Below, piece by piece: positions 58,516 through 64,000 of a stretch of 64,000 bases of DNA (its first letter is position 1; the number at the start of each line of letters is the position of its first letter). The notes under the pieces are model-generated. The model did not search any database. It had not been told where the DNA came from and worked only from the letters and a program-made list of their open reading frames with translations. Both the position numbers and the translations under genes were made by a program. The stretch comes from Dokdonia pacifica (GTDB taxonomy: Bacteria > Bacteroidota > Bacteroidia > Flavobacteriales > Flavobacteriaceae), in contig NZ_FZNY01000004.1 in the NCBI RefSeq assembly GCF_900188275.1, positions 1 to 64,000 on the forward strand. Reading direction: 5' to 3'.

Positions 58516-58538
58516 TATACGCTTTCGCGAAAGCGTAA
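58516..58538. repeat. Palindromic repeat, copy 13 (intergenic)
   Basis: Exact core TACGCTTTCGCGAAAGCGTA at 58518-58537, upstream of thyA. Confidence 0.9.
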
Positions 58539-58818: not shown

Positions 58819-58851
58819 AGACGCAAATGTGAGTGTCTTTAAATGTTCACA
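58819..58851 (+). promoter_or_regulatory. Pseudoknot-like leader element A
   Basis: Stem 1 pairs AGACGC (58819-58824) with GTGTCT (58833-58838). Stem 2 pairs TGTGA (58828-58832) in its loop with TCACA (58847-58851) downstream. Linker loop TTAAATGT (8 bases). It ends 31 bases before the ATG of peptide gene 1. It matches elements B and C with compensatory changes. Confidence 0.65.
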
Positions 58852-58882
58852 ATCAATTATTCATATCGATAAAATTTAATTT

Positions 58883-59068
58883 ATGAAAAAACAGTTGTTA
58901 AACTTTGGAAAAGCTTTAAGTAGCTCAGAGCAGAAAAAAATTAATGGAGGGTTTGGAGTTTTCTTTGATTCCTGTAGCAATATTACCACAAGTCAAGAGT
59001 GTCTTAGTAACCCAACTTGTGCTTGGAATGGAAGTTCATGTTATACTAAAACTCCACACATAGTATAA
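58883..59068 (+). CDS. Double-glycine leader peptide, Cys-rich (peptide 1)
   Basis: The 61-residue peptide has a basic leader MKKQLLNFGKALSSSEQKKI followed by NGG (GG at 22-23), the cleavage mark for C39 peptidase exporters, and a 38-residue core with four Cys (C31, C40, C46, C53; spacing 8, 5, 6) and an end ...NGSSCYTKTPHIV. It resembles bacteriocin- or pheromone-type precursors of Bacteroidota. No exporter lies in the window. The last 16 residues are the same as in peptide 2. The core may form two disulfides or carry modification. Confidence 0.75.
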   Translation: MKKQLLNFGKALSSSEQKKINGGFGVFFDSCSNITTSQECLSNPTCAWNGSSCYTKTPHIV

Positions 59069-59140
59069 TATAATCTGAGACATAGAAGAAGATATATATT
59101 GTAGTTTTTGTATGTCTTTTTCTATGTATTTAACGTATTA

Positions 59141-59168
59141 GGCAGGCTAGAAATAGCCTGCCTTTTTT
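59141..59168 (+). terminator. Terminator of peptide gene 1
   Basis: GGCAGGCTA and TAGCCTGCC form a perfect 9-bp stem with a GAAA loop, followed by six T. From 59169 to 59270 there is a decayed palindrome (59181-59201) and nothing else. Confidence 0.92.
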
Positions 59169-59270
59169 AATGTGTATACTATGCATTTTCGTAAAAGCAC
59201 ACAATTACCTGAAGAGTTATGTAACTAGTAAGGTATCTGTAGGTATTATCAGTTGTTTACGAGGGTATGA

Positions 59271-59465
59271 TTAACATGCATGACCGCGAATGCTTGGACA
59301 ATTCATACAAGTCTCGCTAGGATCAGGAGCGCAAACAGGAACACCTGGTATTCTTGACTCTGTTGGAGAGCAATTTAATTCACTACCTCCCATTATAGTT
59401 GAAGAGTTTGTCAATTTTGATATGACTAGCTTATTAAGATTAAGTGTTTTTTTGTTTTTTTTCAT
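59271..59465 (-). CDS. RiPP precursor peptide with GG leader (RiPP 1)
   Basis: The 64-residue peptide has the leader type of Bacteroidota RiPP precursors (TIGR04149/class I lanthipeptide-like): MKKNKKTLNLNKLVISKLTN, then STIMGG (GG at 26-27). The core (SELNCSPTESRIPGVPVCAPDPSETC...) has five Cys (32, 45, 53, 56, 64) with Ser and Thr that could be dehydrated. No modifying enzyme (LanB/C/M, radical SAM) is in the window, so the final form is open. Paralog: 62300-62524. Confidence 0.7.
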   Translation of the reverse strand: MKKNKKTLNLNKLVISKLTNSSTIMGGSELNCSPTESRIPGVPVCAPDPSETCMNCPSIRGHAC

Positions 59466-59537
59466 AAGGATAATGTGTTTATTAAAATTGATGAAATCTA
59501 CTTCTTATTTAATTTTATTGAGGTAATATATATCACT

Positions 59538-59570
59538 AATTAATCGTAATTCTTAGAATTACGACTAATT
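59538..59570. promoter_or_regulatory. AATTC-type palindrome upstream of RiPP 1
   Basis: TCGTAATTCT-N-AGAATTACGA (59544-59564) with outer arms to 59538-59570 matching in 15 of 16 positions. It covers the end of the regulator gene and lies about 75 bases before the RiPP 1 start. No T-run follows, so it is more like an operator than a terminator. Confidence 0.55.
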
Positions 59571-61294
59571 GCCTTCTTTTTTTTAAGATTTCTAATGTAG
59601 TAAGAAGGTCTAATCCCAGTCTTATTCTTAAAGGCCCTTGCAAAGGATTCTGCAGTATTAAAACCTGCCTCTTCACTAATGGTCTTGACGGTATACTTTT
59701 GTAGTATAGTGTTCTCCCTTAGCTCCTTTAAAATATAATCAATCCTAAGGCTATTGATGTAATTTACAAATGATTTGTCTTTGTGGATATGAATGATTTT
59801 AGGTAAGTATTTTGTGTTAGTAGCACATTTTTTAGCAAGAATGGCTAGTGTAATATCTTTTTGTAAGAATCCTTCTTTTTTTTCAAATTGATCTAATTTA
59901 TGTAAGATAGCAGTAATTGTAGTGTCATCAATACCTTCTAAAAGTAGCTTGGGAGTATTAGATGTGTCATGATTAAGAGTGCTTTTTATTTCTTTATTAT
60001 CTAATTTTGAAATGATACTGTTAAATCGCTCTCTATATATTTTATGCCTATTGAATTGTAGTATAAATAGTGCAATAAGAAATATAATGAAAATGACCAA
60101 ATAAACTGATCTTGTTGCAAGAGTACTTGCTTTACCCTCTAATTGTTTTATAAGTAGCTCTTTCTTTTTTAGAAGTTGCGGAGTATCAAATTCTGAATGA
60201 AGCATATCAACAGTATTTAAATTTCTAGAAGAAATAGTTGTTCTTAGTTCATAAAGTTTTTTGATTATCTCTAGTTGTTTTTGTCTATCACCTTTTTTGT
60301 CATAATAGGTCATTAGGAATTCATAAGCCTCAATAGTACTTGGTACAACTGCATTTGTTTTTGAAACCAATGAATCTACCTTAGTAAAATAGGTTGTTGC
60401 TTTTTCAGCATTATTATAATGTGCTAGTTGTATTTTTCCTAAATAATGTGTCGCTAGGATATAATATTTTTGACTTTCCTGATTTAGGTCTATTTGAGAA
60501 TATCCTTTTAGTAATAGTGACTCTGCTTCTAGGTACTTTTTTTTAAAGAAAAGATTAACCCCTTCATTTATGGTTATAATATCTCCATATGTAGTATTAT
60601 TTCTATAAGCCTTATCTATGATAGTTTTGTAATAATAAGTAGCAGAATCGTACATTTTATTGTTACGCATAGATTCTGCAATTTCAAGAGTAGTCCCTAT
60701 GATTCCTATCGTATCATTCTTTAATATTTTATATGTAAGACACTCTTTATGTAACTCTAGTGCCTGATCATGTTTGCCTATATTTTCTTTTACTAATGCA
60801 ATATTATTTAATATGATATATTTAGATTTTTTATTATCAATACTTTCAGAGAGTTTACGTGCCTTAATGTAATTTTCTATAGCTGCTTCATAGTCGTAAT
60901 AATCATAATAGACAGTTCCAATATAAATATATAGGTATATTTTATATATGTCATCGATATTTTTGCTTTCCCGTAATGCTTTCTCTATATAATTAAATTT
61001 GGTGTCTTTGTCTCTTGCATAATAAGAAAGAAAAAGATATCCATAGTGCCTTCTAAAGGCATTGTCTTCTCCAATTGCTTTTGCCAAATAGCTATTTATA
61101 TATACTATAGAAGAAATGGTATCAGTAGGATTCTGTTGGATTTTATTATGTAAATAATCATATGATTTTCCTGTGAGAGAGTCTGGAATAACATATGTTT
61201 TTTCTTCTTGAGCAAGAATAGTGTATGAGATACATAGGGTGAATAGCAAGAAAAGATAACTTCGTCTATATCTCAACAAATAGATCATTAACAT
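59540..61294 (-). CDS. TPR sensor with transmembrane helix and AraC-type HTH (regulator 1)
   Basis: The 584-residue protein has a signal-anchor or signal peptide (about 1-28, ending TILAQ), TPR repeats (about 35-340, e.g. YYDYYDYEAAIENYIKARKL, KHDQALELHKECL), one membrane helix (about 395-415, SVYLVIFIIFLIALFILQF), and a cytoplasmic AraC-type domain (about 485-575: DITLAILAKKCATNTKYLPKIIHIHKDKSFVNYINSLRIDYIL and TVKTISEEAGFNTAESFARAFKNKTGIRPSYY). The fold suggests a sensor that binds a periplasmic ligand with its TPR part and acts directly on DNA. It lies between peptide and RiPP genes, so secreted peptides are likely ligands, an inference by analogy with peptide-binding TPR regulators of Firmicutes. 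Confidence 0.75.
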   Translation of the reverse strand: MLMIYLLRYRRSYLFLLFTLCISYTILAQEEKTYVIPDSLTGKSYDYLHNKIQQNPTDTISSIVYINSYLAKAIGEDNAFRRHYGYLFLSYYARDKDTKFNYIEKALRESKNIDDIYKIYLYIYIGTVYYDYYDYEAAIENYIKARKLSESIDNKKSKYIILNNIALVKENIGKHDQALELHKECLTYKILKNDTIGIIGTTLEIAESMRNNKMYDSATYYYKTIIDKAYRNNTTYGDIITINEGVNLFFKKKYLEAESLLLKGYSQIDLNQESQKYYILATHYLGKIQLAHYNNAEKATTYFTKVDSLVSKTNAVVPSTIEAYEFLMTYYDKKGDRQKQLEIIKKLYELRTTISSRNLNTVDMLHSEFDTPQLLKKKELLIKQLEGKASTLATRSVYLVIFIIFLIALFILQFNRHKIYRERFNSIISKLDNKEIKSTLNHDTSNTPKLLLEGIDDTTITAILHKLDQFEKKEGFLQKDITLAILAKKCATNTKYLPKIIHIHKDKSFVNYINSLRIDYILKELRENTILQKYTVKTISEEAGFNTAESFARAFKNKTGIRPSYYIRNLKKKKAISRNSKNYD

Positions 61295-61421
61295 TATGTT
61301 TTTTGAAAAATAGTCAATTTATTTTAAAAAGAAGGGAAGGTTTGTCTTTAGCATAAAGTGTGCTTGCAATAAGTGTTGTAACTTGATGAAAATTAGTTTT
61401 TTACACTGCCTTTTCTTTTTT

Positions 61422-61463
61422 TCGAATTCTAAGAATTCCGACTTTTAATTCTAAGAATTCCGA
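61422..61463. promoter_or_regulatory. Two tandem AATTC-type palindromes in the divergent region
   Basis: The 17-bp sequence AATTCTAAGAATTCCGA occurs twice, at 61425-61441 and 61447-61463, 22 bp apart. Each has the AATTCT-A-AGAATT palindrome. They lie between regulator 1 (minus) and peptide 2 (plus) and may be operators for the regulator. Confidence 0.6.
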
Positions 61464-61475
61464 TATTCATTTCTT

Positions 61476-61504
61476 GTTTATCTATTAAAAGCCTTTCATA
61501 TTTG
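61476..61504 (+). promoter_or_regulatory. Candidate promoter of peptide gene 2
   Basis: CATATTTG (61497-61504) has one mismatch to TAnnTTTG, with TTG about 20 bases upstream. It places the transcript start near 61512, before the pseudoknot element, which would then be in the 5' leader RNA. Confidence 0.4.
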
Positions 61505-61546
61505 AGTTTTATAGAGGTACTCCAATCATACTATTTTAAGGAGAGT

Positions 61547-61580
61547 AGACATAAACCTTGAATGTCTCTAAACGATCAAG
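61547..61580 (+). promoter_or_regulatory. Pseudoknot-like leader element B
   Basis: Stem 1: AGACAT (61547-61552) with ATGTCT (61562-61567). Stem 2: CTTGA (61557-61561) with TCAAG (61576-61580). Loops: AAAC and CTAAACGA. It ends 32 bases before the ATG of peptide gene 2. Confidence 0.7.
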
Positions 61581-61612
61581 AGTTCAATTAATTTATTAAA
61601 AAACAACGAATT

Positions 61613-61801
61613 ATGTTAAAATCAATTTCAAATTTAGGAAAGGAATTAAACAAATCTGAAAAAGAACAAATTAACGGAGGCTTTGGAGGTGTTTTCTTTG
61701 ATTATTGTAGTAAAATAGTACTACAACATGAGTGTATTGCAAACCCAGCTTGTGCTTGGAATGGAAGTTCATGTTATACTAAAACTCCACACATAGTTTA
61801 A
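61613..61801 (+). CDS. Double-glycine leader peptide, Cys-rich (peptide 2)
   Basis: The 62-residue paralog of peptide 1 has leader MLKSISNLGKELNKSEKEQI then NGG (22-23) and four Cys (C32, C41, C47, C54) with the same 8, 5, 6 spacing. The core end CAWNGSSCYTKTPHIV is the same in both, and DNA identity over the last about 50 bases is nearly complete, while leaders differ. It stands between regulator 1 (divergent) and peptide 3. Confidence 0.75.
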   Translation: MLKSISNLGKELNKSEKEQINGGFGGVFFDYCSKIVLQHECIANPACAWNGSSCYTKTPHIV

Positions 61802-61812
61802 TATTACCAACA

Positions 61813-61853
61813 AAACAAGATAGACCGTTAAGTGTTTATCTTGTTTCGTTTTT
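61813..61853 (+). terminator. Terminator of peptide gene 2
   Basis: AAACAAGATA (61813-61822) pairs with TATCTTGTTT (61837-61846); CG and seven T follow. Confidence 0.85.
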
Positions 61854-61928
61854 TTGAATTTAACGAGGCCTTATACCTTAATTGATATAAGGTAACTCGA
61901 ATCAATAGAATTATTTTTAGTGAAGGGT

Positions 61929-61962
61929 AGACATAGACCTTGAGTGTCTTTAAATGGTCAAG
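61929..61962 (+). promoter_or_regulatory. Pseudoknot-like leader element C
   Basis: Stem 1: AGACAT (61929-61934) with GTGTCT (61944-61949), one T-G wobble. Stem 2: CTTGA (61939-61943) with TCAAG (61958-61962). Loops: AGAC and TTAAATGG. It ends 30 bases before the ATG of peptide gene 3. Confidence 0.7.
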
Positions 61963-61992
61963 ACTTTTATTATTTTTTAAATATTATGTATT

Positions 61993-62169
61993 ATGAAAAA
62001 ACTAATTTCAAACATTGGGAAAGTTAAGGTTTTAAATAGAGAAGAACAGAAATCAATAAACGGGGCAAGTCAATGCTATTTTGATTGCCATAACAGTTGT
62101 CTTGCTAGTTCTAATGGATGCAGATCACATTATGCTGCTTGCATGGATGTTTGCACTCTTGGTTGTTAG
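61993..62169 (+). CDS. GA-leader peptide with seven Cys in symmetric spacing (peptide 3)
   Basis: The 58-codon gene reads MKKLISNIGKVKVLNREEQK, SINGA (Gly24-Ala25 as likely cleavage mark), then a 33-residue core with seven Cys at 28, 32, 36, 43, 50, 54 and 58, ending in Cys. Spacing is 3, 3, 6, 6, 3, 3, a mirror pattern. The leader is related to those of peptides 1 and 2, and the same leader RNA element lies upstream. The stop TAG (62167-62169) follows directly. Product may be disulfide- or thioether-linked. Confidence 0.72.
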   Translation: MKKLISNIGKVKVLNREEQKSINGASQCYFDCHNSCLASSNGCRSHYAACMDVCTLGC

Positions 62170-62299: not shown

Positions 62300-62524
62300 T
62301 TAACAATTTTGTTCGGTCATAATTTGATTATCGCAATCATTAAAACAAGATTTACAAGTAAAATAAAATGTTTCTGGACAAGTTGCAGTTCCCGTTGGGC
62401 AGATATCGGGATTTTTAGTATGTCTTGTTACAATACCTCCCGTACCTCCAATAATAGCTACTGAATCATTTAATCTTGATATAGTTAATTTGTTTAAGCT
62501 TAGTACTTTTTTTGATTTTTTCAT
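62300..62524 (-). CDS. RiPP precursor peptide with GG leader (RiPP 2)
   Basis: The 74-residue paralog of RiPP 1 has leader MKKSKKVLSLNKLTISRLND, then SVAIIGG (26-27) and a core with six Cys (42, 49, 57, 60, 64, 74), Thr-rich (CPTGTATCPETFYFTCKSC). The CxxC pair near the middle is shared with RiPP 1. No modification enzyme is in the window. Confidence 0.7.
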   Translation of the reverse strand: MKKSKKVLSLNKLTISRLNDSVAIIGGTGGIVTRHTKNPDICPTGTATCPETFYFTCKSCFNDCDNQIMTEQNC

Positions 62525-62604: not shown

Positions 62605-62625
62605 TCGAAATTTCAGGAATTTCGA
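62605..62625. promoter_or_regulatory. AATTC-type palindrome upstream of RiPP 2
   Basis: TCGAAATTTC-N-GGAATTTCGA has one mismatch in its 10-bp arms and the same layout as the palindrome upstream of RiPP 1, including CTAA after it. It lies about 81 bases before the RiPP 2 start, at the end of regulator 2. Confidence 0.55.
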
Positions 62626-64000
62626 CTAAATAGTTGTATCATTTTTAAGGTTTCTTATGTAGTAAGAGGGTTTGATGCCTGTTTTCTTCTTGAAGGCAGT
62701 AGCAAAGGATTCAGCGGTATTAAAGCCCGCTTCTTCACTAATACTTTTAATGGTGTATAACTGTAAAGTCTTGTTTTCTTTTAATTCTTTTAAGATATAA
62801 TCAATTCTATGATCATTAATATAGTTAATGAACGATTTTCCCTTATGAATATTTATAATTTTAGAAAGATACTTAGTATTAGTACTACATTTTTTTGCTA
62901 ATGAAGTAATATTAATATTAGGTACTAAAAACTCATTTTTAGCTTCAAACTCATCTAATTTTTTCAAGACAGAAGTAATTACCGTATCATCAATATTTAA
63001 TTTCTGAACAGGCGTTGTAGTAATAGGAGTTTTGGGACTAGTTGTTTTTGGCTTTTCTTTATTGTTGAGCTCTGAAATAATAACATTATACCGTTTTCTA
63101 TGTTTCTTGTATCTGCTATATTGAATAATAAATAATAGCATTGATAGTAAAATTAAGAGTCCTAGATATATGGTTCTAGTGTTCGTTTGATCTTCTAATT
63201 TGTCTATTAATACTTGCTTGCTTTTTAATAATTGTGGCGTATCAAAGTCAGCATAAAGTCTATCTGTTGTTTTTAAATTTCTAGAAGAGATGATTGTTTT
63301 AAGTTCTAGAAATTTATTGGTAATATCCAATTGGTTTTTAAAATCACTTTTTTCTTGGTAATATGAAATAAGAAAATCATAAGCAGTACTTGCTTCTGGA
63401 AGTACAAGTTTTGTTTTAGTAAGTATAGAATCTACTTTTAAATAATAGGATTTTGCTTTTTCCTGATTTTTATATTGAAGTTGCTGTATTTTGCCAAGGT
63501 ATATTTGCGATAGGATATAATAGGTTTGACTCTCTGGATTTAATTTTAATGTTGAAGATCCTTCTTTTAATAATTCTTGTGCGCTTATGTAATCTTTTTT
63601 ATAATAAAGATTTATTCCTTCATTAATAGTTAAAATCTTTCCATATGAAGGGATTACTTGATTAGCAATATCTATAATAGTATTATAATAATAGGTGGCA
63701 GAATCGTATTTTTTATTATGACGGAGGGACTCTGCGATGTTTATAACATTGGTAATAGTTCTTATCGTGTCAATAGGTTGTTTTGTGTTTCCATATTCAA
63801 AACATCTTTTGTAAAGTTCTAAAGCTTCATCATGCTTTCCTATACCTTCTTTTACTTTGGCGATATTGGTAAGTAGAATATATTGATATTCTTCTATTTC
63901 ATATTTTTCAACAAGCTTTAATGCCTTTAAATAATATATGAGTGCTTTGTCATATTCATAATAATCATGATAGATACCTCCAATATTTGTATAAACGGGA
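62626..64000 (-). CDS. TPR sensor with transmembrane helix and AraC-type HTH (regulator 2), 5' end outside window
   Basis: I read the minus strand through to 63999 with no stop: residues such as YHDYYEYDKALIYYLKAL and GKHDEALELYKRCFEYG match the TPR part of regulator 1, so the gene is longer than the part from 63330. The membrane helix (TIYLGLLILLSMLLFIIQY) and the AraC-type domain (NINITSLAKKCSTNTKYLSKIINIHKGKSFINYINDHRIDYIL, TIKSISEEAGFNTAESFATAFKKKTGIKPSYYI) are complete. The linker carries a Thr/Pro run (KTTSPKTPITTTPVQ). It is the paralog of regulator 1, at the same place relative to its RiPP gene. Confidence 0.75.
   Translation of the reverse strand, partial: PVYTNIGGIYHDYYEYDKALIYYLKALKLVEKYEIEEYQYILLTNIAKVKEGIGKHDEALELYKRCFEYGNTKQPIDTIRTITNVINIAESLRHNKKYDSATYYYNTIIDIANQVIPSYGKILTINEGINLYYKKDYISAQELLKEGSSTLKLNPESQTYYILSQIYLGKIQQLQYKNQEKAKSYYLKVDSILTKTKLVLPEASTAYDFLISYYQEKSDFKNQLDITNKFLELKTIISSRNLKTTDRLYADFDTPQLLKSKQVLIDKLEDQTNTRTIYLGLLILLSMLLFIIQYSRYKKHRKRYNVIISELNNKEKPKTTSPKTPITTTPVQKLNIDDTVITSVLKKLDEFEAKNEFLVPNINITSLAKKCSTNTKYLSKIINIHKGKSFINYINDHRIDYILKELKENKTLQLYTIKSISEEAGFNTAESFATAFKKKTGIKPSYYIRNLKNDTTI

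Follow-up and report, generated by a model that had tools for sequence, protein, structure and literature searches.

A covarying H-type RNA pseudoknot upstream of secreted-peptide genes in Dokdonia pacifica and other Flavobacteriaceae

The stretch of Dokdonia pacifica DNA analysed here, called the window below (contig NZ_FZNY01000004.1, positions 1 to 64,000; 64,000 nucleotides, nt), carries three copies of a short element, each located before the start codon of a small peptide gene. The element is predicted to form an H-type pseudoknot, in which the 5' half of stem 2 lies in the loop of stem 1. The stems and the loops L1 and L3 of each copy, the A/U-rich linkers (read from the sequence) and the peptide genes (open reading frames) are as follows.

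58819..58851, plus strand: pseudoknot copy 1; stem 1 58819-58824/58833-58838, L1 58825-58827, stem 2 58828-58832/58847-58851, L3 58839-58846
58852..58882, plus strand: A/U-rich linker to the start codon of peptide 1, 31 nt
58883..59068, plus strand: peptide 1, 61 amino acids, leader ending in EQKKINGG, cysteine-rich core
61547..61580, plus strand: pseudoknot copy 2; stem 1 61547-61552/61562-61567, L1 61553-61556, stem 2 61557-61561/61576-61580, L3 61568-61575
61581..61612, plus strand: A/U-rich linker to the start codon of peptide 2, 32 nt
61613..61801, plus strand: peptide 2, 62 amino acids, leader ending in KEQINGG
61929..61962, plus strand: pseudoknot copy 3; stem 1 61929-61934/61944-61949, L1 61935-61938, stem 2 61939-61943/61958-61962, L3 61950-61957
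61963..61992, plus strand: A/U-rich linker to the start codon of peptide 3, 30 nt
61993..62169, plus strand: peptide 3, 58 amino acids, leader ending in EQKSINGA, cysteine-rich core

The three copies read AGACGC-AAA-TGTGA-GTGTCT-TTAAATGT-TCACA (copy 1), AGACAT-AAAC-CTTGA-ATGTCT-CTAAACGA-TCAAG (copy 2) and AGACAT-AGAC-CTTGA-GTGTCT-TTAAATGG-TCAAG (copy 3). Copy 1 is the most divergent and has a G.U pair in stem 1. A sequence-only model (R1), trained on 68 homologs and run unfiltered over the whole window, scored copy 3 at 38.3 bits (E 7.7e-11 over the window), copy 2 at 37.7 bits (E 1.2e-10) and copy 1 at 28.9 bits (E 7e-8), while the next best place reached 9.5 bits. In the complete genome (5.52 Mb), a search pattern for the element was found at 10-12 places, against 0-1 for the reversed pattern. 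Because the model separates the three elements from the runner-up, and the pattern stands far above its reverse, they are not chance occurrences. A preliminary description of this DNA had already given their coordinates, their stems, the 8-nt L3 and the absence of a junction base, all of which agree with the sequence, and had placed the ATGs 30-32 nt downstream, as the linkers listed above bear out.

The consensus of the homologs is AGACAY-A-NN-NNNTGA-RTGTCT-NUAAAUGN-UCANNN, with a stem 1 of 6 base pairs (bp), an L1 of 3 nt, a stem 2 of 6 bp, no junction base and an L3 of 8 nt. The window copies differ from most homologs, whose L1 is 3 nt, in having 5 bp instead of 6 bp in stem 2. Stem and loop bases are near-invariant; L1, L3 and the junction-proximal pairs are conserved across homologs. 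The pattern used to collect homologs fixes AGACA/TGTCT and TGA/TCA, and only the remaining pairs are free of selection by it. The free stem-2 pairs are intact in 164, 157 and 135 of 166 distinct elements, versus means of 78, 107 and 114 (maxima 98, 121 and 128) in shuffles that ignore the relatedness of the sequences. The stem-1 pair 6-16 holds in 151 of the same elements versus 127.6 when shuffled (maximum 138), and sliding the partners by one or two columns leaves about 20-70% pairing. Over all 12 pairs, 68 diverse elements have 95.1% of their pair cells intact, compared with 85.0% after shuffling and 27-57% after sliding, and show 82 two-sided changes where shuffles give 24. The 140 distinct elements that the sequence-only model retrieved reach 97.3% (shuffled 89.2%) and 134 two-sided changes (shuffled 39). 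Pairing positions that vary without compensation, named beforehand as the outcome that would speak against an RNA structure, are thus not the pattern of these two sets. When stem 2 was left wholly free in the regular expression, at least 5 of its 6 pairs were still present in 232 of 239 elements. Even the stem-1 pairs treated as fixed change together, as GGACA/TGTCC in four genomes. Compensated changes in stem 2 include CTGCAA/TTGCAG and GATTAA/TTAATC in the D. pacifica genome and CTTAA/TTAAG and CTTGG/CCAAG in others, so that compensatory change is found at all six stem-2 pairs once divergent copies are counted. Chance is very unlikely despite shuffles blind to relatedness, because independent changes recur in many genera. 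These comparisons strongly support an H-type RNA pseudoknot conserved by selection, with two interleaved covarying helices, as had been proposed in preference to a plain protein-binding dyad.

The preliminary description treated the element as a feature of three genes. The three copies stand but the local scope does not: the element is family-wide, with up to about 18-22 copies per genome. Run over the D. pacifica genome, the sequence-only model gives 17 matches at E<=0.001, a number that rises to about 22 when E<=0.03 is allowed. About five of these matches are divergent tandem copies on contig 11 (59647-61179, loci L200-L207), in which stem 2 is altered (GATTAA/TTAATC) and the length of L1 has changed. 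Within the genus, pattern matches occur in 7 of 18 genomes, with at most 13 each. An even sample of the family gave a model match at E<=0.001 in 25 of 299 genomes, most without a further match, and the order and phylum samples added one more genome, from another family. In one densely sampled genus of the family (g128) the element was not seen. A scan of one genome per species of bacteria and archaea returned at least 107 stretches, nearly all from Flavobacteriaceae; the genera among the matches listed are Tenacibaculum, Aquimarina, Bizionia, Lacinutrix, Kordia, Dokdonia, Olleya, Winogradskyella, Mangrovimonas and Ulvibacterium. A few metagenome-assembled genomes among these matches are labelled Cyclobacteriaceae, Bacteroidales or Oligoflexales, labels that may reflect binning errors.

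The genes behind the element mostly encode precursors of 50-80 amino acids (median 63.5, about five cysteines). A G-G motif lies in the leader window (residues 13-45) of 188 of 206 distinct downstream peptides, and G-G, G-A or G-S in 199. EQKxINGG, class-I-lanthipeptide-like and TIGR04149-like leaders are all represented, and this variety makes the element more than the flank of a single gene family. Recurrent neighbours of the homologous loci are ABC exporters with a C39 peptidase (Peptidase_C39 at E 1.2e-36 in neighbour L065), HlyD, VKOR-thioredoxin proteins and TPR proteins. A relative of the HlyD of this exporter is present in 21 of 25 genomes with the element versus 41 of 274 without it (Fisher p = 1.4e-12). 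The peptides are likely to be bacteriocins or ribosomally synthesised and post-translationally modified peptides (RiPPs). In gene kind and neighbours the loci resemble the known GG-leader and RiPP loci of Bacteroidota (leader_Chryseo NF047798, lant_leader_L1a NF038153, TIGR04149), but most element-linked precursors fall below the curated cut-offs, and no leader RNA was reported for such loci in the literature searched. Two copies lie before lipoprotein-like genes instead of GG-leader peptides (L113 466-500 and L192 1501-1536), and these exceptions could reveal other targets of the element.

The position of the element relative to the start codon is also constrained. Stem 2 ends 27.4 +/- 1.9 nt before the AUG (194 distinct copies), whereas co-directional stop codons upstream lie at widely varying distances, which peak near 20-30 and 50-70 nt. 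With enough upstream sequence available, 116 of 217 distinct copies lie at most 110 nt after such a stop codon, and many only 10-60 nt behind it, so that transcription through the element is likely. The L079 operon of Tenacibaculum adriaticum runs ABC exporter, peptides, HlyD and peptide; 7 of its 10 peptides have the element in front of them, and the two transport genes lack it. Where a copy stands alone, sigmaA-like promoters are most frequent 101-125 nt ahead of it (16 found versus about 3 in shuffles), which should place the element inside the leader. The promoter motif TAnnTTTG is not enriched beside the element, and a fixed overlapping promoter was rejected. The linker is 91% A+T, with 2.4% G versus 11% before 46 other genes of the window, and carries A at -3 and at -12 in 88% of copies each. 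Adenines at -3, -6, -12 and -13 are positive determinants of initiation in Flavobacterium johnsoniae (PMC6847099). A G-poor A/U linker with such favourable adenines suggests a strong and open start region. An upstream open reading frame was considered and rejected, since the AUG found in L3 of 143 of 194 copies occurs in all three phases and other triplets substitute for it. A Shine-Dalgarno role for the 3' strand of stem 2 (AAGGA in one variant) was likewise discarded, that strand being the most variable part of the element; to our knowledge, Bacteroidota do without Shine-Dalgarno signals.

Of 229 copies, 132 carry a companion hairpin that ends 0-3 nt short of the knot; by the same kind of score, about 27% of far-upstream sequences and 13% of shuffles have a hairpin. 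Its stem varies with compensation and has many U.G pairs. The loop with its closing pair holds a self-complementary hexamer in 107 of the 132 hairpins versus 10% of shuffled loops, a statistic that leans on one lineage, UCGCGA making up 78 of the 107. Ten kinds of hexamer occur, including also UUGCAA, CUCGAG, ACUAGU and CUGCAG. Such a palindromic loop would fit a candidate kissing loop for RNA-RNA pairing, with a DNA dyad as the alternative. Many homologous loci have this hairpin in the 1-20 nt upstream of the knot, for example L006, L079 and L163. The window copies have no convincing companion hairpin.

The covariation, the operon position, the link to peptide genes, the constant spacing before the AUG and the open-looking linker point to a cis-acting messenger RNA (mRNA) module that could set translation initiation of individual secreted-peptide precursor cistrons, a reading in which we place intermediate confidence. 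In this mechanism, the 35-nt pseudoknot, often with its 5' hairpin, would stand about 27 nt ahead of the AUG, in a leader or between two cistrons, and would fold co-transcriptionally, with coaxially stacked stems and L3 (UUAAAUG) along stem 1. Its invariant bases might be recognised by a protein, either a dedicated regulator or a ribosomal protein, or by the 30S platform, and this recognition would raise or gate initiation at the adjacent start; an enhancer and a gate are alike possible. In this way, precursors and exporter genes carried on one polycistronic mRNA could be expressed at different levels. More tentatively, the element might define an undescribed RNA regulon, in which one knot with one trans factor or the ribosome would switch on or scale translation of the whole set of secreted cysteine-rich peptides of the cell, and the self-complementary loops of the companion hairpins may join such mRNAs, or neighbouring copies, by kissing; this we regard as possible but rather doubtful. 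The preliminary description had also proposed a leader RNA in which sensing of a ligand or protein would control the synthesis of the peptides. The RNA half of that proposal is strongly supported; for the control half, what is observed is that the element goes with peptide genes and keeps its spacing to the AUG, and sensing and control stay conjectural.

Several observations weigh against a translation module. The knot ends about 27 nt before the AUG and leaves the start site uncovered, and no start-hiding alternative structure was seen, in folding that was not pseudoknot-aware. Nested folding of copy 3, which ignores pseudoknots, was no better than shuffles. The conserved spacing to the AUG could be partly inherited by duplication. 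Three peptides of the L079 operon manage without the element; these start 13-22 nt past the previous stop codon, a spacing to be expected of coupled translation.

Among the other explanations, most weight goes to an element of mRNA processing or stability, which we consider unlikely but the strongest of the rivals. The operon transcript would be cut before the hairpin or knot, the knot would guard the new 5' end, and the peptide mRNAs would outlive the exporter part. Many copies do lie directly behind a stop codon within operons, several upstream regions have a stem-loop just before the element, and secreted peptides are expected in excess over their exporter. However, near-invariant stem and loop bases and a distance of 27 +/- 2 nt to the AUG would both be superfluous in a plain barrier, and isolated copies with their own upstream promoter keep the element too. 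Somewhat less probable is a riboswitch, in which the knot would be a small-molecule aptamer controlling translation of the peptide. The H-type pseudoknot is a known aptamer fold, as in preQ1-I, SAM-II and SAM-V (PMC11625349, PMC6061858), and the invariant bases of L1 and L3, together with the pairs next to the junction, look like a conserved core. These small riboswitches and the glutamine-II/Downstream-peptide RNAs are similar to the element in size and topology and share its A-rich L3 and location in bacterial leaders. They differ from it, however: no Rfam riboswitch resembles the element even at E 5-10, and the element stands clear of a ribosome-binding site and precedes non-metabolic genes, with copies per cistron inside operons. 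Seven repeats in one operon whose exporter genes lack the element would be unusual for metabolite control, and the folding gave no start-hiding alternative or terminator.

Repression nucleated by a protein, in the manner of gene 32 of phage T4, appears improbable. A protein bound to the knot would, by analogy, spread over the A/U linker and block the ribosome. The layout matches: the gene 32 operator of T4-like phages also has a short pseudoknot 5' of an unstructured A/U-rich stretch before the start codon and acts in cis on translation, and UUAAA is present in L3 as UUAAA/UAAA units are in that operator (PMC535899). Spreading, however, would allow variable spacing, which is tight here, and the UUAAA here belongs to the knot, not to the linker; no candidate protein is known. 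Moreover, the operator serves a single phage gene and is bound by the gene's own single-stranded-DNA-binding protein, whereas the flavobacterial element has conserved bases and stands before dozens of unrelated secreted-peptide genes; homology between the two is not claimed. A feature acting as DNA, such as a dyad operator or a recombination or cassette site, is very improbable. Taken by itself, stem 1 does form a conserved inverted repeat, and palindromic centres occur in the upstream hairpin, but two covarying interleaved dyads, G.U pairs and a constant spacing to the AUG are unexpected of protein-binding DNA.

Compared with Rfam 15, the window has no match at the gathering score and the elements have none up to E 10 or E 5, so that the comparison suggested earlier yields no known family. 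The passages searched in the main text of three surveys of structured RNAs (PMC2864571, PMC8632094, PMC11109978) contain nothing of this kind, and no earlier report was found in the open-licence literature on pseudoknots or structured RNA in flavobacteria or bacteriocins. The RNA family is new, and its general kind, the cis-acting pseudoknot leader, is known. What is unusual is its use: in bacteria that lack Shine-Dalgarno signals, it recurs in front of one secreted-peptide cistron after another. A compact, strongly covarying RNA tied to one gene class offers a handle on the production of exported peptides in flavobacteria. Given the fixed distance to the AUG in such bacteria, the part of RNA structure in start-site selection becomes testable. 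The motif also flags short precursor genes overlooked by protein models.

In the window itself, the C-terminal cores of peptides 1 and 2 are nearly identical (CAWNGSSCYTKTPHIV). Peptide 1 has no NCBIfam match and is just at the Pfam cut-off for PF01508 (Paramecium surface antigen), probably through its cysteine spacing. Peptide 3 has weak similarity to leader_Chryseo (bacteriocin-like) and Bacteroid_pep. A C39-type exporter is not adjacent to the peptides within the window, and no sigmaA-like promoter matches upstream of the three copies. The following features accompany the peptide genes.

59540..61294, minus strand: regulator with TPR and AraC-type helix-turn-helix domains (PF12833 8.8e-12, TPR_12), divergent from peptide 2
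61425..61463, plus strand: two palindromic AATTCTAAGAATTCCGA repeats, 22 bp apart, upstream of copy 2
62626-64000, minus strand: second TPR-AraC regulator

The first regulator is a candidate transcriptional regulator of the locus, separate from the RNA element. The AATTCTAAGAATTCCGA pair and this divergent gene suggest an activator-dependent promoter for copy 2. Palindromic AATTCTNAGAATTNCGA sites comprise the tandem pair at 61425-61463 upstream of peptide 2 and further sites at 59544-59564 and 62605-62625. The AATTCTNAGAATTNCGA and AATTCTAAGAATTCCGA sites are probable operators of the two adjacent TPR-AraC regulators. Two small minus-strand genes, 59271-59465 and 62300-62524, lie directly downstream of the two regulator genes and have class-I-lanthipeptide-like leaders (lant_leader_L1a, below cut-off) and no pseudoknot; the two further AATTCTNAGAATTNCGA sites, one a perfect palindrome and one a weaker copy, are found upstream of them. 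A further palindrome, CGCTTTCGCGAAAGCG at 58517-58537, is reminiscent of the loop of the companion hairpin and of repeats in flavobacterial intergenic regions.

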